From Thiocystis violascens DSM 198 (GTDB taxonomy: Bacteria > Pseudomonadota > Gammaproteobacteria > Chromatiales > Chromatiaceae), in NCBI RefSeq assembly GCF_000227745.2, contig NC_018012.1, positions 1,397,478-1,461,477 on the forward strand: a DNA stretch of 64,000 bases. The letters are read 5' to 3'. The translations under genes were made by a program, and so were the position numbers. A model generated the notes under the pieces. It searched no databases and was not told the origin of the DNA. It worked only from the letters and a program-made list of their open reading frames with translations. This document shows positions 1,262 through 63,955 of this stretch, piece by piece. Position 1 is the first letter of the stretch. The number at the start of each line of letters is the position of its first letter.

Positions 1262-1936
1262 TCAAGGCGATCGCTCCGACAGCGCAGGTAGCGAGCCGAT
1301 CGCCTCTTTTGACCCCATCATCAGCTTGGCCGCCATTCCCGGCTCCAGTCCAAACTCATCCTCGACCATCCGGTTCCAGGCTTCGCGCTTGAAGGTCCGT
1401 TCATCCGGTACCTTGCGATGGACCAGGTTGTAGTGACAATCGATGCAGCTCTTGCCCTCGGTTTCCTCGCGATGAATCGCCGCCGTGTCGGCGCGCTTAC
1501 CCAAAATCGCCTCCTGAGTGTGGCACCTTGAACAGGTGGCCGAATCGCGTTTGCGAAACCAGGCGCGCGCCGCGAAGGCCGCCTCGGGCAGATGCAAAGT
1601 GTTGATGACCGGATCGTCATAGTCAGGCCCCAGAAACTGCTTGATCAGATCCTTGATGCCGATCGCATGGTCCCAGGTCGCCGCAAGCAACCCTTCCGAG
1701 ACATGACAATCCCCGCAGGTGGCCCGCACCCCGGAGGCCGAGTCGTAATGCGCGGTTTGCCGATAACTGTCCTCGGCATAGGTCATGGAGTGACAACTGG
1801 TGCAGAATTCGCTGCTGCTCGTGAAATGGTCGAACTCGATCAGAAAGGCCATCAGGAGCACCCCGCCGAGTCCGCCGACCACCAGCGCGATCAGCACGTG
1901 CCGGGTGATGAACAGTGGCGCGCCAAAGCTGGACAT
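1262..1936 (-). CDS. NapC/NirT-type tetrahaem cytochrome c, quinol-oxidising partner of the HAO-like protein
   Basis: Predicted 224 residues. One N-terminal membrane anchor (about residues 8-30) is followed by four CxxCH haem motifs (CTSCH, CGDCH, CSRCH, CIDCH), the layout of the NapC/NirT/NrfH family that carries electrons from the quinone pool to periplasmic reductases. The start at 1936 is chosen over one 21 codons upstream because its ATG overlaps the TGA of the preceding gene (TGATG) and has GAGGA just upstream. It is therefore translationally coupled to the octahaem gene, which suggests the two proteins form a membrane-bound complex as in HaoA-HaoC modules. The direction of electron flow is inferred, not visible. 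Confidence 0.9.
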   Translation of the reverse strand: MSSFGAPLFITRHVLIALVVGGLGGVLLMAFLIEFDHFTSSSEFCTSCHSMTYAEDSYRQTAHYDSASGVRATCGDCHVSEGLLAATWDHAIGIKDLIKQFLGPDYDDPVINTLHLPEAAFAARAWFRKRDSATCSRCHTQEAILGKRADTAAIHREETEGKSCIDCHYNLVHRKVPDERTFKREAWNRMVEDEFGLEPGMAAKLMMGSKEAIGSLPALSERSP

Positions 1937-3393
1937 CAGCGATCCTCCCCCGCTCCAAATCCAAGAATCGTGCTGGACTGATCGGGACGGTTCAGCCATT
2001 GATGCTGTTCGTGGTCCGTCAGATGCGCCTCGACCAGCTCAGCGGCCCGCGCCCCGGCCACTGCTCGTGCCTCCGGTAGAAAGCGCGCGTAGAAGTTGCG
2101 CCCGACCAGATACATCCCCTCCCACCAGGCGTGATTCGGACTCATCATGGACGCGCCATGACGGGCGCGGGCGCCTTCGTCATGCCAAAGTTCCCAATAG
2201 GTGAATTCGATGGGGTCGTCGAAGGGCGTCGGCGTCAGCAGGTTCTGTTCGTAGAGTCCCGCCATGATCGCCCGCGCCGGCTCGCCGAACTTGCCGTCGA
2301 ACAGTTCCACCACCCCATCGAACTGTTCCATGAAGCCCTGGGTGAAGGTCTTGCCGTGACACTCCAGGCAGACCATGCTCATCGCCTGACGACGGCGCTC
2401 CGGGGTCGCGACCGACTTCACCTTGCCGAGCGTGCCGTCCGGGCGCGTCAGCTCGCTGCCGCGTTTGGGCACCGGCTCGCTCGCGGGCAATTCCAGCTTG
2501 CCGCCGTCCTCGAACACCACCAGAAACTGACGCTGGGAGACCGGCGAATTCAGGCTCCAGGCATTGCGCATCCCGACATCATGGCTGGACGGGAGCTTGC
2601 CGGCCGCGCCCATGTGACAGGTCACGCAGGTCGGCGCGGCGGTGTAGTCGCGCCCCGCCACCCATTCCGGCGCCTGTAGATTCATCTGGTCGCGCTGGGC
2701 GACATAGAGCATACCGTGCTTGGATGCCTCGAAGATCTCCTTGTCCGGCGAATCGGGGCCGGAATGACAACGCACGCAGGCCTCCGGCTCGCGGGCCTGG
2801 GCCTTGGAAAAGCGATGACGGCCGTGACAGGAGGAACAGGAGCCTTTCGACCCGTCCGGATTGATGCGGCCGATGCCGGAATTGGGCCAGGTCGCCGCAT
2901 CGAGCGTCCCGTCGCCCTTCACCTTCACCCGCGAGCCATGACACTGATCGCAGGAGGCCACCCGCATGCCCGGACCGCCGACGTTGTCCGCCAGCGCCGG
3001 GAGCCGTTCCTCGATCATCGCGAAGGCCTCCGCGTGGACCGATCCCTGCTGCTCGGCGTACTCCTTCTCATGACAGCGCGCGCAATCCTTCGGGGACACG
3101 ATGGTCGCGATGATCTGTCCCTCGTGTTCGATCGCGTCTACGTCCGCACGATCGGCCTGATGACAATCCATGCAGTTGACACCCGCCGCCTGATGCGCGC
3201 TCTCACGCCACTCGCTGGCCAGTCCCGCCGATGCCTTGGAGTGACAGCTCACGCAATCTTTTCCCGCCGCGTGCCCCCAGTTGCCCGGATCCAGTTTGAC
3301 CTTGTCCGCGAGCGCATGACCGCCGCCAACCAAACAGGAAAACAGAAGAATCAAGGCCCAAAGCAAGGGCTTCGACAACACGGGCTTCGACAT
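1936..3393 (-). CDS. Octahaem cytochrome c, hydroxylamine oxidoreductase-like
   Basis: 485 residues with a signal peptide (hydrophobic stretch about residues 10-28) and eight CxxCH motifs starting near residues 47, 74, 104, 148, 186, 206, 256 and 342. The number, spacing and the C-terminal W-H-D-E-G-A-R-A-R-H-G-A-S-M-M block match the HAO family. HAO enzymes from nitrifiers carry a Tyr in this C-terminal block that cross-links to the catalytic haem. Here the corresponding stretch reads S-P-N-H-A-W-W, apparently without it, which would fit the reductive HAO subgroup acting on hydroxylamine or nitrite; this alignment is by eye. The coupled NapC-like gene supports quinol-driven reduction. Location is the periplasm. 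Confidence 0.88.
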   Translation of the reverse strand: MSKPVLSKPLLWALILLFSCLVGGGHALADKVKLDPGNWGHAAGKDCVSCHSKASAGLASEWRESAHQAAGVNCMDCHQADRADVDAIEHEGQIIATIVSPKDCARCHEKEYAEQQGSVHAEAFAMIEERLPALADNVGGPGMRVASCDQCHGSRVKVKGDGTLDAATWPNSGIGRINPDGSKGSCSSCHGRHRFSKAQAREPEACVRCHSGPDSPDKEIFEASKHGMLYVAQRDQMNLQAPEWVAGRDYTAAPTCVTCHMGAAGKLPSSHDVGMRNAWSLNSPVSQRQFLVVFEDGGKLELPASEPVPKRGSELTRPDGTLGKVKSVATPERRRQAMSMVCLECHGKTFTQGFMEQFDGVVELFDGKFGEPARAIMAGLYEQNLLTPTPFDDPIEFTYWELWHDEGARARHGASMMSPNHAWWEGMYLVGRNFYARFLPEARAVAGARAAELVEAHLTDHEQHQWLNRPDQSSTILGFGAGEDR

Positions 3394-3711
3394 AACGACC
3401 TCGTCATCCGGTCTTGATGCAATTGAACGCGGATTATAGGAATCAAAACGATTCGGACAATCCGATTCGCGAGCGATCTTATTTCAAATCAATTAGTGAT
3501 CTATTAAATAACCATATTCAACGATACTGGTGATCGTCTTTTATTGACCTTACGCACTATCGTTTCCAATAGGGCTGACAAACAATGCACTCAGCCGCGT
3601 GGAGAGTTATTCGCGTCTTTATTCAGCGGACGCGGACTCGCCTGAGCCTAAGCCACTGTCCAGTGACGCGGTTGACAACGATAACCACCAACAGAAGAGG
3701 AGCGACACAGC
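3394..3711. promoter_or_regulatory. Divergent promoter region between the octahaem and pentahaem cytochrome genes
   Basis: The 318 bases between the two start codons contain a strongly AT-rich block (about 3425-3570) in otherwise GC-rich DNA, as expected of divergent promoters. AAGAGGAG just before 3712 is the ribosome site of the pentahaem gene. I found no operator I would stand behind. Confidence 0.5.
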
Positions 3712-5022
3712 ATGCGTATCCGACTCGCATTGTCATTCATGCCCCTGGGTCTTGCGCTCGGAATCGGCGCTGGCCCGCTGGTTCCGCTCGCGCTTGCCGA
3801 GGAGGCCGAGCCGATCCACCACGTCTCGTCCGAGGTCTGCGAAACCTGCCATAAAGACATTTTCCAACAATGGAAAGGCTCGATGCACGCCCAGAGCACC
3901 GCGCTTTCCGACCCGATTCATGGCACCTTTTATAAGATGGAAGTGGGCGATCCGACCGCCGAAGGGATGATTCACAAGAAATCGGGGAAATTCCCGCTCT
4001 GTCTCCAGTGCCACGCCCCGAACGCCGCGCGCGACCAAACCACCAAGCTCGACGCGCTCCCCGCCTACAGCGAAGGCGTCAACTGCGTGGCCTGCCACAC
4101 GCTGAAAAGCTACAAGGGCATCAAGGACGAGAAGGGAAAGATCCGCTATGGACTCAAGGCGTATGACGTCGCCGATACGCTCCAGGCCCCCGCTGGGTTC
4201 CCGCGCGGACTTCAGAAACTGACCGCCGCGGATGACCTGTTCGGCGGCGCCGTCGACGCATCGTCGGACGGTCAGAAGCCGAACCCGCATCTTGGCGAGG
4301 CGGTGGAACTGGACGGCAAGCAAATCCCGGCCTTGACCATGGAAGCGAATCCGATACAACTCCGCACCTCCGACGCCTGCATGGGCTGCCACGATCAGCG
4401 CGATAACCCCCAAGGCGTCCCGCTCTGCCAGACCGGCAACGAATTCGTCGCGGGTGGCAGTCAGGTCGCCTGCCAGACCTGCCACATGCCGGTCGCCGGC
4501 GGCTTCGCCGATCACACCATGGGAGGCGGCCATCATGAGGGTATGCTCAAACGCTCGATCGTCTTCGACATCAAGAGCAAGCCCGTCGGCGACAGCATCG
4601 AGACGACCGTTTGGATCCGCAATCTGCAACCCCATGCGATGCCAACCGGCGCGCCCTTCCGTAACCTCAATCTGAAATTGACCGCCTATAACGCCAGCGG
4701 CGAGGTGGTGTGGGAGAACGCCAAGGGCCATCCGGCCAAGGAGGATCCGCAGGCGTATTTCGTCTATGGCCTGGCGGACGATAAAGGCAACCCGGCACCG
4801 CCCCCGACGGCGACTCAGGCGGGCAAGGACAGCCGACTGAAAGCCCACGAGACCCGTGAGTTGGTTTACCAGATCCCCGCCGAGGGCGTCGTGCTGGTGC
4901 GCGGCGAGCTTTACTACAACCTGCTCTGGCCGTCACTGGTCGAGAAGTTTACGGAGTTACCGAAGGATGTCACGGAGCCGGTTTTAATCGCCGTGGCCGA
5001 AAAAGAGATTTCCGGAGAGTAG
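3712..5022 (+). CDS. Pentahaem cytochrome c (cytochrome c554-like family), exported
   Basis: 436 residues. An N-terminal signal peptide ends near A-L-A-E-E (residue 30). Five CxxCH motifs follow: CETCH (about residue 43), CLQCH (97), CVACH (125), then CMGCH and CQTCH near residues 223 and 256. The last 170 residues carry no haem and read like a beta-rich domain (W-I-R-N-L-Q-P-H-A-M-P-T-G). The haem part resembles the cytochrome c554/multihaem c families that act as electron partners of octahaem enzymes. It is divergent from the HAO-like gene and probably belongs to the same respiratory module. Start chosen for the AAGAGGAG site. The exact partner and the role of the C-terminal domain are unknown. 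Confidence 0.85.
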   Translation: MRIRLALSFMPLGLALGIGAGPLVPLALAEEAEPIHHVSSEVCETCHKDIFQQWKGSMHAQSTALSDPIHGTFYKMEVGDPTAEGMIHKKSGKFPLCLQCHAPNAARDQTTKLDALPAYSEGVNCVACHTLKSYKGIKDEKGKIRYGLKAYDVADTLQAPAGFPRGLQKLTAADDLFGGAVDASSDGQKPNPHLGEAVELDGKQIPALTMEANPIQLRTSDACMGCHDQRDNPQGVPLCQTGNEFVAGGSQVACQTCHMPVAGGFADHTMGGGHHEGMLKRSIVFDIKSKPVGDSIETTVWIRNLQPHAMPTGAPFRNLNLKLTAYNASGEVVWENAKGHPAKEDPQAYFVYGLADDKGNPAPPPTATQAGKDSRLKAHETRELVYQIPAEGVVLVRGELYYNLLWPSLVEKFTELPKDVTEPVLIAVAEKEISGE

Positions 5023-5379: not shown

Positions 5380-5736
5380 ATGAGCCACTCGATCCATTCC
5401 GTGCCAGGAAGACTCCGCGTCCGCTCGAACGCCTTTCGCTGCAGTTCCAGCGAGGCGCAATCGGTACAGAGACGCTTGATCTCGATGGACGGTGTCACCC
5501 AGGTTCGGCTCAATGCCCATGCCGGGAGCATCACCGTTCACTATGACTCGGAACGGCTGACGAAGCAGACCCTGCTGGATGTCATGAAGACTCTTGGCTG
5601 CACACAGGCCATGCCGAGGACGAATCCGGCAGTCGCGAGCAAAGCGGGGGCGATGTTTGGCAAGGCGCTGATCGGCGCAGTCATCAACAAAGCAATGGAA
5701 CGCTCGGCTTTGAAGCTCGTCAGCGTCTTGTTGTGA
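5380..5736 (+). CDS. HMA_2-like domain protein with hydrophobic C-terminus
   Basis: 118 residues. Residues 1-75 resemble the N-terminal domain of the P-type ATPase at 58778-60919: both begin with an H-x-x-P-G-R-L-R motif, then a helix, a G-V-x-x-V-R-x-N segment and a V-x-Y-D strand. This is the HMA_2 fold, which lacks the CxxC metal site of ordinary HMA domains. The C-terminal 35 residues are Gly/Ala-rich and amphipathic to hydrophobic (A-G-A-M-F-G-K-A-L-I-G-A-V-I-N-K-A-M-E-R). Small HMA_2 proteins often accompany such ATPases. The gene stands alone, upstream of the broken lbtU-like gene. Function is not known; a role in metal or iron compartment formation is an inference from the ATPase cluster. 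Confidence 0.7.
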   Translation: MSHSIHSVPGRLRVRSNAFRCSSSEAQSVQRRLISMDGVTQVRLNAHAGSITVHYDSERLTKQTLLDVMKTLGCTQAMPRTNPAVASKAGAMFGKALIGAVINKAMERSALKLVSVLL

Positions 5737-7914: not shown

Positions 7915-9414
7915 ATGCTGGAACGCTTCATCCTGGAAGTCGCCGATCCACCGGGACGGATGAGCCTTTACGATTACGAGAGCCGCGCGCTCTTGAACGA
8001 GATCTCGGGCCGTGACTGGGGAACCATGTTGCAGCGGCTCACCGACTTCGCCGACGCCGAGACGGATGGTTCGGAGCAGGTGGCGCGGTTCGACGCGCCA
8101 GGGGGCGACTCTCGGCTCAGTATCGGCGCCACCGTCGAAGACCCCGCCGTCGCCCTGACGACACTGCTTGCGGCCGGTCGCGGACTGACGCCCGCAACGC
8201 CGACCGAGACGGCCTCTCCCGGTCAGAAGCGCAGTCGCCGCAAGCTTTGGGAGGTTCCGCATAAGTATCACTGCCCCATCATCGGAACCTGTCTGGAGGT
8301 CGCCGACCTGCGGCGCATCGGCGCCCGTTTCGCCTGGCGCAACAAGGAGCGGCCGAGCGAGTACGAGATCCATGTGAGCTTCGTCGGCGCGGCCGATGAC
8401 CGCAACGCACTCTCGCAGGCAACCCATAAGCTGCTGGAGAAGCGGTATGCCGGGGTGGTGAGACGCTTCGCCAAGGCGCGCTCGCCGGAGGAGTTGCTGG
8501 CGCTCTGGGCGGAGGCGCTGGGATCCGGCCAGGTTCCGGCTGCACTCTGGGCCATCATGACGCACCCTAAGGCGGATGCCGCCGTCATGGCCCTGGCCTA
8601 CGAGGATGTCCACATGCTCTCCCACCAGATTGGGGCCGGGCAGCGGGCGGACCTGAAGGCACTCGCCGAGACGGGCCAGGAACTCGCGCGCCTGAAGCGC
8701 GAGTTCGACGCATTACAGCGACGCACGCGGGAGCAGACGGACACCCGCGAGCGCGAGTTCGCCAGCTTGACCGCACGCCTTGAACGGAGCGAGGAGGAGC
8801 GCGACCGCATGCGCGAACGCGAGCAGAAACTCAGCGAGCGTCTCAAGGCCAACGGCGCGGAGGCGCATTGGGAGGCCATCGGTGACCGCGATGCGCGTGT
8901 CGCGTGGCTCGAGGAGACGCTGGCTGACAGCGAATCGCGCACCGCTGCCTGGCGCGAAAAGCACGGCCTGGCACAGGCCGAGTGCGAGCGGCTCGCACGG
9001 CTGGCGCGGGAGCGCACGGCCGACTGCGAAGCCCTGGATCGCCTGTTCTTCCAGTCCAGCACCGCGTCTTGCGGCGACTGTCCCAACGAGGACTGCGCGC
9101 AACGCGCCGACCTCGGTGGCCGGCTCGTGCTCTGCGTCGGCGGACGCAAGCCCCTGGTCGAGCAGTATCGGCGCCTGGTGACCGGCTGCAATGGCCGCTT
9201 CGACCATCACGACGGTGGGCTCGAGGACAATCAGCGCCGCCTCGAGGCCATGCTGGCGTCCGCCGATGCCGTGGTCTGCGCGGCCGATTACGTCAGCCAT
9301 GACGCTTATTATCGGACCAAGCGCTTCTGCAAACGCCTGGAAAAGCCGCACGTCCTCCTCGGCAGCTCGGGCGTGTCTGCCTTTGCGCGCGCGCTCGAAC
9401 AGGTGGCCGGCTAG
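7915..9414 (+). CDS. DUF2325 protein with long coiled coil and Cys cluster
   Basis: 499 residues. Near residues 118-126 there is a H-x-x-x-H-C-P-I-I-G-T-C-L motif. Residues about 235-375 form a charged heptad-rich coiled coil. Then comes a cysteine cluster (C-G-D-C-P-N-E-D-C, about residues 384-393) and a C-terminal DUF2325 domain (V-L-C-V-G-G-R-K-P-L, residues about 403-495), with the D-H-H-D-G-G and A-D-Y-V-S-H-D-A segments of that family. GGAG precedes the ATG. The conserved Cys and His residues suggest metal or redox sensing, but no biochemical role is established that I can state. Position directly after hemP suggests iron-linked expression. Confidence 0.82.
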   Translation: MLERFILEVADPPGRMSLYDYESRALLNEISGRDWGTMLQRLTDFADAETDGSEQVARFDAPGGDSRLSIGATVEDPAVALTTLLAAGRGLTPATPTETASPGQKRSRRKLWEVPHKYHCPIIGTCLEVADLRRIGARFAWRNKERPSEYEIHVSFVGAADDRNALSQATHKLLEKRYAGVVRRFAKARSPEELLALWAEALGSGQVPAALWAIMTHPKADAAVMALAYEDVHMLSHQIGAGQRADLKALAETGQELARLKREFDALQRRTREQTDTREREFASLTARLERSEEERDRMREREQKLSERLKANGAEAHWEAIGDRDARVAWLEETLADSESRTAAWREKHGLAQAECERLARLARERTADCEALDRLFFQSSTASCGDCPNEDCAQRADLGGRLVLCVGGRKPLVEQYRRLVTGCNGRFDHHDGGLEDNQRRLEAMLASADAVVCAADYVSHDAYYRTKRFCKRLEKPHVLLGSSGVSAFARALEQVAG

Positions 9415-58777: not shown

Positions 58778-60919
58778 TCACTCGACCTCGATCGCTTTCT
58801 CCCTCTGGGCAGGACGCGCGCCCCGCAGCGCATGGACCAGCACGCCGAGGGTGGTGCCGTTGTGCAGCAGCGCGCTCGCCACGGGCGAAAGCCAGCCCAG
58901 GAGGGCGCCGGCCATGATGGCGGTGTTGATGCCAACCGTGGCGTTAAAGTTGGTGCGGATGATGCTCATGGTGCCGAGCGCGATCTCGCGGGCATCGGCG
59001 ACAGCGATCAGCCGGTCGTCGGTCAGCACGATGTCGGCGCTCGCCCGCGCCAGATCCGCCCCGCGCGACATGGCGATGCCGACATCGGCGGCGACCAGTG
59101 CCGGACCGTCGTTGATACCGTCGCCGACGAAGCCGACCTTGCGACCCTCGCGCTGCAACGCAATGATGAGAGCCGCCTTCTCCTCGGGGCGAACCTCGCC
59201 GTGGACCTGGTCGAGACGCAGGGTGCGGCCCAGCGCCTCGGCCTTCTCCTGACGATCCCCCGAAATCATCACCAGCCGCTCGATGCCCAGTGTGCGCAAT
59301 CGCCGCAGGGTCTCCTCGGCATCCTCGCGCAGGGTGTCGCGCAGCGCGATCAGGCCCATGGGTCCGCGCTCGCTGGCGACGTAGAGCAGTGTCTTGCCCT
59401 CGTCGAGCAGACGCGCGATCCGCGCCTCGTGCGACTCGAAGCGTACGCCCTCGTGCTCTTCCAGATAGTGGCGGCTACCGACGAGGATGCGGCAGCAATC
59501 CAGCCTGGCGCTGAGTCCGTGGGCGACCATGTAGTCCACCTCGCCGTGCGAGATGTGCTGCAGATCGCGCTCGCGCGCGGCCTCGACAACGGCCTGGGAC
59601 AGGGGATGGGTGGCATGCTCCTCGACCGAGGCGACCATCGCGAGCAGCACCTCCTCGGACTCTCCGCACCGGGGATCGAGCACCACGACATCCGTGACCT
59701 CCAGTTCGCTGTGGGTCAGGGTGCCGGTCTTGTCGAACACCAGGGTATCGATCCCGGCCAGACGCTCCATGGCCTCCCCACCCTTGATCAGCACGCCGTG
59801 ATTGGCGGCCTGATAGAGCCCGGATTTGAAGGCCACCGGGGTGCCGAGCTTGAGGGCGCAGGAATAATCGACCAGGAACACCGACTGCACCCGCGTGAGA
59901 TCGCGGGTCAGGGCGTAGACGGCGCCGGCCGAGCCGAGGGTGAGATAGACGCGCGTGTCGGCCAGCTCGTCGGCCATGCGTTGGGTCTCCGAGGTCTTGT
60001 CGAGCGACTCCTGGATGAAGCGAGCGACCCGCGCGGTGGTCGTGTCGTCGCCGACCCGGGTCGCCTCGATGCGCAGCCGTCCCTCGACCAGTACCGAGCC
60101 CGCGACCACGCGCTTGGGCGCCTCGCGCGCGATCGGCATGTCCTCGCCGGTGACGGCGGCCTGGTTGACCATGGCCACGCCCTCGACGACGCGCCCGTCG
60201 ACCGGGATGGTCTCGCCGACGCCGACGACCAGAAGCTCGCCGGCCAGCACCTGATCGCCGGGGATCTGCACGAGCTGACCGTCGCGCTCGACCCAGGCGG
60301 TGGCGGGAGCCGGGCGCAGCAGCCGGCGCAGCAGCCGGTCGGACTGCTGCTGGGTGCGCTCCTCCAGGTACTCGCCCAGGGTGAGTAGCAAATCGGTGAT
60401 ATTGGCGGTATAGAGCTTGCCGCGACTCGCCGAGAGCCCGACCGCCAGGGCGTCCAGCACCTCAACCTTGACGCCCTCGTGGATCAGGGTGTCCGCTCCC
60501 TTGAGCAGCTTGGAGCCGATATTCAGATAGGTTGCCACATGCTGCGCGGGGCGCGGCAGCAGGGGCAGCAGCAACAGGGTCAGGACATTCCTGACGAGCG
60601 GCGCGATGGAAGGATCGTCGGGCGCGTCGCGCATCTGACTCGCGCCAGCCCGCGGCCCGAAGGCGTCGAGCCACGCCAGCAGTCGCGCCTGCGCGAGCTG
60701 GCGCGGGTCATAGTCGACGACCAGACTGCGCGCCGCGCGATTGATGCGCACGTCCTCGACGCCGTCCTGCGCATCGAGCCAGTAGCGCAGCGACTCGCCG
60801 ACACCGACCTCGGACAGCGCGGGGACGCGCAGACGCAACCGGCCGGGCAGCGCATGCAGAAGGCGATAGGAGATGGGAGTCATGATGACTCGGGCGATCG
60901 GCCGCCAGCGACCAGCCAT
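58778..60919 (-). CDS. HMA_2-containing P-type ATPase, P1B-like, candidate FezB-type iron pump
   Basis: 713 residues (ATG at 60919; 60883 also possible). The N-terminal HMA_2 domain (Y-R-L-L-H-A-L-P-G-R-L-R) is followed by membrane helices, the actuator (T-G-E-D-M-P, about 258), the phosphorylation site in V-F-D-K-T-G-T-L-T (about 392), H-A-T-H-P-L in the nucleotide domain (about 436) and G-D-G-I-N-D (about 605). In the transport helix the usual C-P-C is Y-S-C-A-L-K-L-G-T-P. This places it outside the copper, zinc and cobalt groups. ATPases of the P1B-6 type with HMA_2 proteins are central to ferrosomes; that match is from memory. It closes a five-gene operon. Confidence 0.88.
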   Translation of the reverse strand: MAGRWRPIARVIMTPISYRLLHALPGRLRLRVPALSEVGVGESLRYWLDAQDGVEDVRINRAARSLVVDYDPRQLAQARLLAWLDAFGPRAGASQMRDAPDDPSIAPLVRNVLTLLLLPLLPRPAQHVATYLNIGSKLLKGADTLIHEGVKVEVLDALAVGLSASRGKLYTANITDLLLTLGEYLEERTQQQSDRLLRRLLRPAPATAWVERDGQLVQIPGDQVLAGELLVVGVGETIPVDGRVVEGVAMVNQAAVTGEDMPIAREAPKRVVAGSVLVEGRLRIEATRVGDDTTTARVARFIQESLDKTSETQRMADELADTRVYLTLGSAGAVYALTRDLTRVQSVFLVDYSCALKLGTPVAFKSGLYQAANHGVLIKGGEAMERLAGIDTLVFDKTGTLTHSELEVTDVVVLDPRCGESEEVLLAMVASVEEHATHPLSQAVVEAARERDLQHISHGEVDYMVAHGLSARLDCCRILVGSRHYLEEHEGVRFESHEARIARLLDEGKTLLYVASERGPMGLIALRDTLREDAEETLRRLRTLGIERLVMISGDRQEKAEALGRTLRLDQVHGEVRPEEKAALIIALQREGRKVGFVGDGINDGPALVAADVGIAMSRGADLARASADIVLTDDRLIAVADAREIALGTMSIIRTNFNATVGINTAIMAGALLGWLSPVASALLHNGTTLGVLVHALRGARPAQREKAIEVE

Positions 60920-61010
60920 CGGCGACCCGATGCCCGCAGGTCGGCACGCGCCGCCGCGACGGCGATGCCGTTCCTGGCTGGCGGCCGAACGCTGGAAGCT
61001 GAACGCCCGC

Positions 61011-61385
61011 TCAGCCCTCCTTGTTCTGGCTGCCGTGATGCAACTCCGCGGCGGCGTCGCCGAAGCGCTCCTTGACCTCTTCGACGCCGCCCTGCAGCAG
61101 CGACCAGGTCTTGACCACGCCCTTGATCAGCGTGCGCTGCACCTGCTCGTTGGTCACCAGATAGGTAACGGCGGCACCGATCAGCAGCCCCTTGACAAAG
61201 CGGTCGTTCGGCATGCTCAACAGCGAGCGAACCGGCTGCTGTTGCTGTTGCTGGTAGTAGACGGGATAAGCGTAGGGTTGCTGCAGACCGGGCTGCATGG
61301 CGCCCTGGCCCTGATAGCCGCCGGCGGCCTGTCCGGCGGCATACTGGCCGGCGCCGGGGTACTGCTGATAATTGTTCTGGCTCAT
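61011..61385 (-). CDS. Gln/Tyr/Gly-rich protein with a hydrophobic C-terminal motif
   Basis: 124 residues from the ATG at 61385 (GGGAG upstream). The first 55 residues are low complexity (Q, Y, G, A, P, with a run of Gln). Residues about 58-90 read D-R-F-V-K-G-L-L-I-G-A-A-V-T-Y-L-V-T-N-E, then V-Q-R-T-L-I-K-G-V-V-K-T-W, a Gly-zipper-like hydrophobic helix shared with the protein at 61934-62725. The end is charged (E-E-V-K-E-R-F-G-D-A). Family function is unknown to me. Its place 91 bases before the ATPase gene suggests a membrane-associated partner. Confidence 0.75.
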   Translation of the reverse strand: MSQNNYQQYPGAGQYAAGQAAGGYQGQGAMQPGLQQPYAYPVYYQQQQQQPVRSLLSMPNDRFVKGLLIGAAVTYLVTNEQVQRTLIKGVVKTWSLLQGGVEEVKERFGDAAAELHHGSQNKEG

Positions 61386-61410
61386 TCCGAATCTCCCGAA
61401 GTAGCTGAAA

Positions 61411-61572
61411 TCATGGATTTTTCCGGTCCGCCGCAGGCTTCTCGGCGGCGCGCCGCTTGACGATACCACGCATCAGGAGCACCAGCGCGGCGCCAACCAG
61501 GACGCCGCCGATGCCCTCGACCAGGTTCTTGGTGACCCCATGACGGTGGCGCTGCTGGGACGAACTGCTCAT
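61411..61572 (-). CDS. 53-residue single-helix membrane protein
   Basis: Polar start (M-S-S-S-S-Q-Q-R-H-R-H-G), one Gly-rich hydrophobic helix (residues about 18-36: L-V-E-G-I-G-G-V-L-V-G-A-A-L-V-L-L-M-R) and a basic tail (V-K-R-R-A-A-E-K). The ATG overlaps the stop of the upstream gene (ATGA) and has GAGGG before it, which supports a real gene despite its size. It is in the same operon as the ATPase. Function unknown. Confidence 0.7.
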   Translation of the reverse strand: MSSSSQQRHRHGVTKNLVEGIGGVLVGAALVLLMRGIVKRRAAEKPAADRKNP

Positions 61573-61937
61573 GACTCGCCCTCGCTGCCCGCCAGGCGGG
61601 TCTGGATACCGTAAACGACGGCCGTGCCGACCAGGAACATCAGCCCCAGCCGGCCAAACCCCTGTTCCGCGACGCTGGAGGCGACGGCCCCCGCGGCGAC
61701 GGTCGCGACGCCCGCAATCGCGGCGGCCTTGGCGGTCTCCGCCAGCGCGCCCTGCGGCGTTTGGGTGCCGGACCGGAACCGCCGCACCTGGTGCGCGGCG
61801 GCCGCGCTGCCGCCGACGATGGCCCCCGTGGTCGCCAGGCGCATCAAGGCGGCACAATCGAGCGCGGCATGGGGCTGCGCCGGATAGGCGGGTCTCATGG
61901 GTACTGGATCGTTCCGAGTTTCGTAGGTCACGCTCAT
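61569..61937 (-). CDS. Small Ala/Gly-rich membrane protein
   Basis: 122 residues. A polar N-terminus with a Pro-rich piece leads into three hydrophobic Ala/Gly-rich segments (A-L-M-R-L-A-T-T-G-A-I-V-G-G-S-A; A-A-A-I-A-G-V-A-T-V-A-A-G-A-V; G-L-M-F-L-V-G-T-A-V-V-Y-G). The Gly/Ala helix pattern is like that of small proteins that pack in curved or compartment membranes. Coupled by ATGA overlaps to both neighbours. I do not recognise a named family. Confidence 0.72.
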   Translation of the reverse strand: MSVTYETRNDPVPMRPAYPAQPHAALDCAALMRLATTGAIVGGSAAAAHQVRRFRSGTQTPQGALAETAKAAAIAGVATVAAGAVASSVAEQGFGRLGLMFLVGTAVVYGIQTRLAGSEGES

Positions 61938-62725
61938 GTGCCCGACTCCTTGCCGCCATTGCCGTTGCCGTTACCATCCCCGCCGGAGCCGAACAGGGCA
62001 TGCTGCACGGACTCGCTGGTCAGCAGCAACACGGCGGCGGCTCCCACCAGAGCGCCCTTCCAGAAATCCGGATCGTCGACATTCAGCATCTTGGACAGGG
62101 TGGTCAGCCCGTTGCCGCCGTTGCTGACTTCCTCCACCAGATCGGTCATCCGGGCGCCATGCGCCTGTCCGGCACCCTGAGCAGCGCCATGGACATGCCC
62201 TTGGGGCATCGCCTGAAAGGCATCGGGCGGATAGGCGCCAGGGGGCGGTGGTGGATAACCGGCGTAGGCGCTGTAGGGTGGTGCATGCGGCGGAGCCATG
62301 TAGGGCGGTGGAGCCATGTAGGGCGGGGTCCAGGCTTGCGGAGCCACCGCGAAAGGGGGAGGCGCGGCGTAGCCCTGATAGGGCGCGCCGGCCCAGGGAT
62401 CCGGCGCCAGCGGGGGATACTGCGCCTGACCTTGTCCCGGCGGTATCGCACCGGCGGCGCCGTGCATGGACTGGCCCTGCCCCGACGTCGACCATTCGCC
62501 CTGCCCGCCCCGGACAGCACCCTCGGCCTGTCGCCCCTGGGAAGCGCCGGCCTGTCCGTAGGCGTAAGCACTGCCCTGGGCCTGACCCTGTCCGCCGGCC
62601 GATCCGGACGACGCCTCGCCGTAACCGCCGACCGTGCCCTGCGCCGCCGCGTCCGGCGAGCCGCCCCGGCCTCCGGCTCCCATCCCTGGACCGCGTTCCG
62701 ACGCGTCGCTTTGGTGCTCACTCAT
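61934..62725 (-). CDS. Gly/Pro/Tyr-rich low-complexity protein with C-terminal hydrophobic motif
   Basis: 263 residues. Residues 1-100 are rich in Gly, Gln, Ala and Ser; 100-175 are Pro/Tyr/Ala-rich with repeats of P-P-Y-M-A-P; the last 70 are a conserved-looking domain with D-F-W-K-G-A-L-V-G-A-A-A-V-L-L-L-T-S-E and V-Q-H-A-L-F-G, matching the same motif in the 124-residue protein. The Gly/Gln tail ends G-N-G-N-G-N-G-G-K. Low-complexity plus membrane motif suggests a scaffold or coat around a membrane structure. First gene of the operon, facing the Fur-like region. Confidence 0.78.
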   Translation of the reverse strand: MSEHQSDASERGPGMGAGGRGGSPDAAAQGTVGGYGEASSGSAGGQGQAQGSAYAYGQAGASQGRQAEGAVRGGQGEWSTSGQGQSMHGAAGAIPPGQGQAQYPPLAPDPWAGAPYQGYAAPPPFAVAPQAWTPPYMAPPPYMAPPHAPPYSAYAGYPPPPPGAYPPDAFQAMPQGHVHGAAQGAGQAHGARMTDLVEEVSNGGNGLTTLSKMLNVDDPDFWKGALVGAAAVLLLTSESVQHALFGSGGDGNGNGNGGKESGT

Positions 62726-62825
62726 TCGATTTCTCCGATGATCTTCATGGTTGACACTCCAGGAAACCCTGCCTGCTCACCCGCATCCCCGGCCATAAGC
62801 TTACGCACCTTGAGCATGGATTGCG

Positions 62826-62866
62826 GATGAGAATATTCGCAATGTTAGTCGTTTGCATTATCATCT
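62826..62866. promoter_or_regulatory. Fur-like half sites between the ATPase operon and the iron-binding protein
   Basis: GATGAGAAT at 62826-62834 matches one Fur half-site (6 of 7 bases of TGATAAT) and ATTATCA at 62857-62863 matches the opposite half-site exactly; they are about 23 bases apart. Their place between two divergent, iron-related units supports a Fur-controlled divergent promoter. Confidence 0.45.
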
Positions 62867-62930
62867 GCAAACCAAGCGCCCCGGCTCGACCGCGGCGCGC
62901 GCCAATTGCCCCCAACTGGAGATCATACTC

Positions 62931-63955
62931 GTGAGACCACGTTTCCCTGCCCTGACCGTCATCGCCGTCCTCGCCAGCCTGCCGCCTCGACCCTCGCCGC
63001 CGACGCGGAAGTCAATGTCTACTCATCCCGCAAAGAGGAGTTGATCAAGCCCCTGCTCGACCGCTTCACCGAACAGACCGGCACCCCGGTCAACCTGGTG
63101 ACCGGCAAGCCCGAGGAACTGCTTGAGCGACTCCGACGCGAGGGCGCCAACTCGCCCGCCGACGTGCTCGTCACGGTGGATGCCGGCAACCTGCACCGCG
63201 CCAAGGCCGCCGGGGTGACCCAGCCCCTGACCTCCGACAGCCTCGCTCGGACGATCCCGGAGACCTACCGCGACCCCGAGGGACACTGGGTCGGCCTGAC
63301 CATGCGCGCGCGCCCCATCCTCTACGTCAAGAGCGAGGTCGATCCCGCAACCCTCTCCACCTACGAAGCGCTCGCCGATCCCGATTTCAAGGGTCGTGTC
63401 TGCATCCGCTCCTCCGACAACGTCTACAACCAGTCGCTGGTCGCCTCCATGATCGCCGCGCGCGGCGTCGCGGCCACGGAAGCCTGGGCCAGCGGCCTGG
63501 TCGCCAATCTGGCGCGCCCGCCCAAGGGCAGGGACCGCGACCAGATCAAGGCCGCCGCCGCCGGCGAATGCACGCTCGCCATCGCCAACACTTACTACCT
63601 CGCCGGCATGCTGACCGGCGAATCGGCGGCGGATCGCAGCGCAGCCGAACTCATGGGCGTCTTCTGGCCCAACCAGGAGGATCGCGGCACCCACGTCAAC
63701 GTGAGCGGCGCCGCCCTCACCGCGTCGGCCAAGCATCCCGAGTCCGCCGTCGCCCTGATCGAGTTCCTCGCCAGTCCCGAGTCCCAGGCCTGGTACGCCG
63801 AGGCCAACGGCGAATACCCGGTACGCGCGGACGTGCCGCCGAGCGCGACGCTCGCCACCTGGGGCGAGTTCAAGGCGGACACGCTGAACCTCGCCCGGCT
63901 CGGCGAACTGAACGCCGAGGCCGTCAAGCTCATGGATCGGGCCGGCTGGCGCTGA
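62931..63955 (+). CDS. Fe(III) ABC-transporter substrate-binding protein, frameshift in signal peptide
   Basis: The mature part (about 325 residues) is typical of FbpA/FutA ferric-iron binding proteins: V-N-V-Y-S-S-R-K-E-E-L-I-K-P-L, F-T-E-Q-T-G, S-P-A-D-V-L-V-T-V-D-A-G-N-L, G-R-V-C-I-R-S-S and the Tyr pair region A-N-T-Y-Y-L-A-G. The likely start is GTG 62931 (GGAG upstream), giving M-R-P-R-F-P-A-L-T-V-I-A-V-L-A-S-L-P, but the rest of the signal (A-A-S-T-L-A-A-D-A-E) is in another frame. One base seems lost near 62980. If real, the protein is not exported; a sequencing error is also possible. It is divergent from the ATPase operon. Confidence 0.82.

Follow-up and report, generated by a model that had tools for sequence, protein, structure and literature searches.

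A Probable fez-Type Operon Encoding a MamC-Related Membrane Protein in Thiocystis violascens DSM 198

Introduction

Ferrosomes are lipid-bounded iron stores of bacteria, and the gene sets linked to them include fezABC in Desulfovibrio magneticus and a six-gene operon in Shewanella putrefaciens. Ferrosomes are formed from six fez genes in R. palustris CGA009, according to PMC12016538, and C. difficile needs both FezA and FezB, as stated in PMC12574912. FezC is presented as a DUF4405-like cytochrome in PMC10979944; since the description for C. difficile names FezA and FezB, FezC is not universal in fez clusters and is not taken here as a defining part. In this study, a 64,000-nucleotide stretch of Thiocystis violascens DSM 198 (contig NC_018012.1; the whole stretch is called the window) was analyzed, and a five-gene operon, G1–G5, was considered. 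With a probability of roughly three in four, judged from sequence, this operon is of the fez type, in the multi-gene form of Proteobacteria, and would build ferrosomes. The new point is that one of its genes, G2, encodes a MamC-family protein.

Similar to described fez operons, the locus has a P-type ATPase with an HMA_2-like N-terminus, a small membrane protein directly upstream of it, iron-uptake neighbors and a multi-gene layout, and HMA_2 proteins are found in related loci. It differs in having five genes, among them the extra small gene G3, and no DUF4405-type FezC in the operon, while its fez-type HMA_2 gene lies 53 kb away. The host genome (5.0 Mb, one contig) has two FeoB_C matches. 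It also has two reaction-center matches, and therefore the host is a phototroph, which supports the purple bacterium of the original prediction.

Operon Organization

The five tightly spaced minus-strand genes expected by the original prediction were found in the order G1–G5, spanning 62725–58778:

G1, 61934–62725, minus strand: 263 aa, with a G/Q/P/Y-rich low-complexity N-terminus and one conserved C-terminal hydrophobic segment (DPDFWKGALVGAAAVLLLTSESVQ)
G2, 61569–61937, minus strand: 122 aa, membrane protein of the MamC family (resembling the magnetosome protein MamC), by NCBIfam NF038051, reciprocal HMM, hhalign and shuffled control
G3, 61411–61572, minus strand: 53 aa, single hydrophobic segment
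G4, 61011–61385, minus strand: 124 aa, with an N-terminus rich in Q, Y and G, a single hydrophobic segment and a charged C-terminal helix; directly upstream of the ATPase, possible FezA counterpart
G5, 58778–60883, minus strand: FezB-like P1B ATPase of 701 aa if started at the later ATG, or 713 aa if started at 60919, with HMA_2-like N-terminus and SCALK in the metal-site helix

The G1/G2 and G2/G3 junctions are 4-bp ATGA overlaps, followed by gaps of 25 bp between G3 and G4 and 91 bp between G4 and G5 (127 bp with the later ATPase start), and the earlier wording of three overlaps or near-contacts was a fair one.

Among 53 other genomes drawn as relatives, the ATPase was detected at E <= 1e-110 in six, with identities of 82, 66, 65, 60, 57 and 56%. 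All five genes occur together in five of these relatives (L017–L021), and because they recur side by side, the gene set is beyond chance. The gene order is that of the window in L017, L018 and L019, while L020 has an extra second G2 after G3 and G3 precedes G2 in L021. In the sixth ATPase-bearing relative, G023, only a short stretch of the locus was covered; a weak G2 match in this genome (E 8.9e-4), found over a LysM-type open reading frame (ORF) on another contig than its ATPase, was counted as chance.

The most serious competing explanation is a plasma-membrane pump for iron efflux or iron delivery, which would export Fe(II) to the periplasm with the small proteins as accessory subunits and form no organelle. 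P1B pumps are normally exporters, and the iron context and the SC/AC type of the ATPase, both described below, would suit such a pump equally well. However, a simple exporter would be oddly escorted by four small membrane or low-complexity proteins, one of which (G2) is from a family known in the membrane of an iron organelle, and a published six-gene fez set makes ferrosomes (PMC12016538). A pump of this kind is considered improbable, and a ferrosome-building operon is preferred.

The MamC-Related Protein

For the magnetosome protein MamC (Mms13), Asp70 has been described as a residue with Fe2+ affinity, and a template effect has been proposed from the Glu66–Asp70 spacing, as given in PMC6584501 (2019). 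G2 matched the NCBIfam MamC model NF038051 with an E-value of 1.3e-10 and 41.4 bits, below the curated cut-off of 100. A Pfam assignment of G2 to DUF6232 (E 0.12) was dropped, the MamC match being far better.

Both G2 and MamC are short, Ala/Gly-rich and hydrophobic, every G2 score lies under the curated cut-off, and in 3 of the 19 G2 proteins from fez loci (Cereibacter, Rhodobacter capsulatus and Azospirillum, all alphaproteobacterial) no NCBIfam MamC match was found, so that the resemblance might reflect convergence of Gly/Ala-rich membrane proteins with no common origin. Several results argue against this. The other 16 proteins match the MamC model at <= 3.5e-4, and each time it is the sole NCBIfam family below 0.001; reciprocally, an HMM built from 14 G2 proteins recovered 13/13 over-cut-off MamC genes (E 2.8e-19 to 2.0e-12). 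Profile–profile comparison by hhalign gave 98.5% probability, co-linear over 94 columns, while 20 column-shuffled MamC profiles reached 0.3% or less against G2, other small fez families 0.2–0.8% against the MamC profile, and none of ten locally shuffled G2 sequences matched MamC. Convergence is thus rated unlikely, and less credible than the iron pump. G2 is, by these comparisons, a relative of MamC and not MamC itself, and the significant co-linear profile similarity in both directions suggests that it belongs to a wider MamC superfamily, which is proposed here. A structure model of G2 made with five sequences has three helices and a mean pLDDT of 63.3, too weak for fold comparison. No mention of a MamC-like Fez protein was found in the open papers searched, and a prior mention in the founding fez papers is possible.

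The residues linked to magnetite are mostly not kept in the fez homologs. At the template-pair columns (Glu66/Asp70 in AMB-1 numbering, placed in the alignment by spacing), both residues are acidic in 13/13 MamC proteins versus 2 of 19 fez homologs (L021 and L138), and the window G2 has G and E, the acidic pair not being kept. A later glutamate is E in all 13 MamC proteins and in none of the 19 homologs (D in two), while the position that follows the acidic pair is basic in most, with K/R in 14/19 homologs and K in 12/13 MamC. A fez protein mostly devoid of magnetite-linked residues fits an organelle with another mineral.

In a sample of 398 Pseudomonadota, MamC matches were over the cut-off in 13 genomes and below it in the window genome, G328 and G250, all three of which have the ATPase, and in 0 of 14 controls. 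Neighbors were checked in five of the 13 MamC loci: MamD was found in L122, L126 and L128, an aminotransferase in L131, and, at a score under the cut-off, a partial match of MamX type in L119. Several further MamC loci had no magnetosome-type neighbor by eye within the stretch examined, and consequently a magnetosome-island setting is established for some of the 13 and not for all. A restriction of MamC-family genes to magnetotactic and fez genomes held in the 398 Pseudomonadota, failed in 369 Gammaproteobacteria, and was given up. As a separate observation, the MamC-family genes of L159 (genome G682), L161 and L163 (G501) and L162 (G634) have no adjoining fez-type or obvious magnetosome gene in the stretch read. 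Across 18 loci from Clostridia, archaea, Bacteroidales and delta-type bacteria, the sole match (L067, E 3.9e-4, a 349 aa ORF on the opposite strand) was judged to be chance.

The P-Type ATPase

The metal-site helix of G5 carries SCALK in place of the CPC/SPC motif of P1B ATPases such as CopA, ZntA and CoaT, with which it shares the overall P1B family and the catalytic motifs; its best PDB match is the copper ATPase 3rfu (E 1.5e-77). An (S/A)C(A/G)xK variant is present in 12/12 aligned sequences and CPC/SPC in none; this SC(A/G)-type motif is that of P1B-6, the FezB class, a label that no search returned. Of the HMA_2 domain predicted on the ATPase, the match itself was recovered at the N-terminus (E 1.3e-5), at 25.6 bits and therefore under the Pfam cut-off of 30.

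Among 101 gathered ATPases, 40 are of the SC/AC type. In a quick maximum-likelihood tree (LG+G4 without mixture, no bootstrap) built from all 40 together with 36 of the remaining 61, 39 of the 40 form one clade (SH-aLRT 98), apart from the 36 ATPases of other types, with a Bacteroidales sequence left outside. One branch of the clade holds Clostridia, Methanobrevibacter and Mailhella (Desulfovibrionaceae), and the other holds Proteobacteria and Campylobacterota together with the window; Mailhella and Clostridia serve as stand-ins for FezB, the tree being without any proven FezB.

These results also bear on whether G5 might confer resistance to a metal other than iron (Zn, Cd, Cu, Co or Mn) as a pump with novel accessory genes. 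The NCBIfam families over cut-off for G5 are the general ATPase-IB_hvy, ATPase-IB2_Cd and ATPase_P-type, which would allow it. However, the CPC/SPC/CPH motif is absent from G5, which stands apart from the CPC and SPC pumps in the tree, where the original prediction had looked for contrary evidence; its neighbors are iron genes, and the genome has further P-type ATPases. A pump for another metal is therefore very unlikely. Least credible of all is a magnetosome-like organelle with magnetite, which a MamC-family protein in an iron context might call to mind, given that the window G2 has not kept the acidic template pair and that an ATPase of the G5 kind is not known as a component of magnetosomes.

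The Other Small Proteins

The original prediction had regarded the small genes as Gly-rich or HMA_2 partners, a view that misses the MamC-family protein, the most telling part; it had also asked whether they belong to a different known system, and Pfam and NCBIfam show just the MamC relation. G1 has no Pfam or NCBIfam family at E 1 and is clearly related to G4 (profile–profile 97.6%), while G3, among 14 sources compared, is present just in the window and five same-family relatives. Relatives of G4 give weak YtxH/DUF5132 matches.

In L043, a Clostridial locus, the ATPase is immediately preceded by a DUF6110 protein (E 1.2e-37), and a weaker DUF6110 match takes this place in Mailhella (L086, 4e-7). 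Like DUF6110 (PF19605), G4 stands directly before the ATPase and has one hydrophobic segment followed by a charged helix-like stretch; unlike it, G4 has a long low-complexity N-terminus, and it matched a profile of 15 ATPase-upstream proteins at just 64.5% over 58 columns, a weak value, against 0.4% or less in 20 column-shuffled controls. As for FezC, three DUF4405 matches over cut-off are located elsewhere in the host genome. Downstream of the ATPase, weak DUF4405 matches that do not reach the Pfam cut-off are present in L041, L046, L138 and, as a fusion to HMA_2, L039; all four loci also have a MamC-like gene.

Distribution of Related Loci

At E <= 1e-110, the ATPase is held by at least 8 of 397 Pseudomonadota including the window genome, with 519–646 bits in the other seven; the best ATPase paralog in its own genome reaches 279 bits. 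This sample and that of 398 used for MamC are not identical genomes. The wide ATPase searches scored two or three candidates per genome and may for this reason have missed an ATPase, and the genome-contig scan, made with two generic ATPase peptides, is a sample rather than a census, with counts to be read as at least.

Related small genes adjoin SC/AC-type ATPases in relatives from the same family and in Vibrio, Hahella, Rhodomicrobium and Arcobacter, in many cases close to genes for iron uptake, and together with the ATPase clade these gene sets in several lineages support the fez-type, ferrosome-like locus that had been predicted. Among the loci of the seven other Pseudomonadota with the ATPase (L032–L038), G1-, G2- and G4-like genes with two HMA_2 proteins are found in L033, L034 and L035 (the L035 G1 being weak, E 0.0012), and six-gene sets (HMA_2, G1, G2, G4, ATPase, HMA_2) in L033–L035 and the Vibrio plasmid L136, the second HMA_2 gene being divergent in L033, L034 and L136. 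An assignment of L033 to Shewanella was dropped, its ATPase grouping with a Vibrio plasmid in the tree. The Azospirillum locus comprises six adjacent genes by annotation, and the L038 locus ends at a contig end. The operon resembles these multi-gene fez-like loci of Vibrio, Hahella and Alphaproteobacteria, and its gene content is hence not unusual for Proteobacteria, contrary to what was at first supposed. In the fez-like loci L032, L036 and L037, G1- and G4-like genes are accompanied by one or two HMA_2 proteins and G2 is absent, which speaks against a tight MamC–fez link. As some loci lack it and solitary members also exist, a MamC-like gene is a frequent but not a constant part of fez loci in Proteobacteria.

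Genomic Neighborhood

Three further features of the window are relevant to the iron context:

Ferric-binding protein of FutA/FbpA type, 62906–63955, plus strand: divergent from the operon, with its likely secretion signal in another frame than its mature domain
Divergent intergenic region, 62726–62905, no strand assigned: shared by the operon and the ferric-binding gene, with a weak Fur-like match at 62844–62862
Stand-alone HMA_2 protein, second (b) type, 5380–5736, plus strand: 53 kb from the operon, near an IS5-family transposase

The ferric-iron binding protein expected across the intergenic region is present, with the best PDB match 2pt1 (E 6.8e-104) and an ANTYY motif. Its likely signal peptide is in ORF 62853–63044 and its mature domain in ORF 62906–63955, and because of these different frames the gene may be frameshifted or the sequence may contain an error. 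Of the Fur-like sites proposed in between, a best match of 13/19 to the Fur consensus was found, and the upstream region of the closest relative gave 11/19; a Fur box as a firm element was reduced to a hint. In related loci, a ferric-ABC-like set was seen by eye in L017, FeoA is annotated near the Cereibacter locus and an iron ABC permease near that of Azospirillum, and FeoB-like genes (by eye, GTPase motif) are near L020, L037, L043, L046 and L160. An iron-type neighbor is not present at every fez-like locus.

The stand-alone HMA_2 protein matched Pfam HMA_2 (E 2.9e-13) and scored 79 bits with the b-type profile versus 46 with the a-type; b-type proteins accompany fez-like operons in other lineages. 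A DUF2325 protein (window 7915–9414) is encoded near this gene, and DUF2325 was also seen near fez-like operons in G132 (L036 2211–3515) and on an Arcobacter plasmid (L138 3113–3445), making it a possible fez-associated gene. A DUF2202/rubrerythrin-like (ferritin-like) protein lies within fez-like operons of a gammaproteobacterial metagenome-assembled genome (L046 4889–5635) and of the Arcobacter plasmid (L138 3958–4641). Another HMA_2 protein adjoins fez in two relatives (L018 4110–4670; L019 13265–14005), and its copy in the host genome (L024 8189–8692) is elsewhere, where its neighbor, as judged by eye, is a cation-efflux-like gene; the L024 and L018 copies have a common C-terminal CxxCxxKLxAxRW motif. 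As well, the window contains at 1262–5022 a cluster of multiheme c-type cytochromes. One of them is NapC/TorC-like; a second, of 485 aa, has 8 CxxCH motifs as counted by eye, and its best NCBIfam model, hydrazine dehydrogenase, scores far under the cut-off; a third, of 436 aa, has about 5 CxxCH.

Discussion

Beside the observed operon, its homologies, the ATPase clade and the iron neighborhood, we infer the metal, the transport direction, the organelle and the roles of the small proteins. The SC/AC-type FezB-like ATPase would use ATP to transfer Fe(II) from the cytosol into inner-membrane vesicles for storage in mineral form. G4, which may be FezA, and its relative G1 would insert single membrane segments and, with G3, might populate and shape the vesicle membrane, while the low-complexity P/G/Q/Y tails of the small proteins might form a coat or lining of the vesicle. 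G2 could limit granule growth through a loop that touches the iron mineral, as MamC does with magnetite, minus the acidic template pair, and the HMA_2 domains of the ATPase N-terminus and of the stand-alone protein might be involved in iron docking or delivery.

Several points weigh against such a ferrosome-building operon. The fez assignment draws on stand-in sequences and on descriptions of FezA, FezB and FezC, and the operon has no DUF4405-like FezC gene. None of six same-genus genomes carries the operon, and its distribution is therefore patchy. The unrelated-looking G3 scores 62.8% over 21 columns against the same ATPase-upstream profile, and since this is as high as G4, the likeness of G4 to ATPase-upstream proteins may be generic membrane-segment similarity. 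Concerning MamC, matches were found in 4 of the 369 Gammaproteobacteria (the window's, G501, G634 and G682), of which the latter three are without the ATPase at the cut-off used, with at most three candidates scored per genome, and G710 has the ATPase (frame split), FeoA/FeoB-like genes and G4 with no MamC match. Finally, the Fur-like site is weak, its best score (13/19) being equaled in 5 of 500 mononucleotide shuffles.

For the construction of lipid-bounded iron stores in bacteria, a MamC relative in fez operons would offer a handle on mineral control in ferrosomes, and it suggests that ferrosomes and magnetosomes are tied by evolution. It is tentatively proposed, with rather more reserve than for the operon itself, that the two organelles have a common membrane-protein family, in which the MamC homolog of many proteobacterial fez operons sits in the ferrosome membrane and controls the mineral, and the MamC of magnetosomes branched off later, acquiring the acidic magnetite template. 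If true, both lipid-bounded iron organelles would be linked by common parts, beyond analogy. The proposal predicts that the fez MamC homolog would localize to the granule membrane and that an altered loop would change granule size or mineral. Moreover, ferrosome formation would likely be extended to phototrophs of the family to which Thiocystis violascens belongs.

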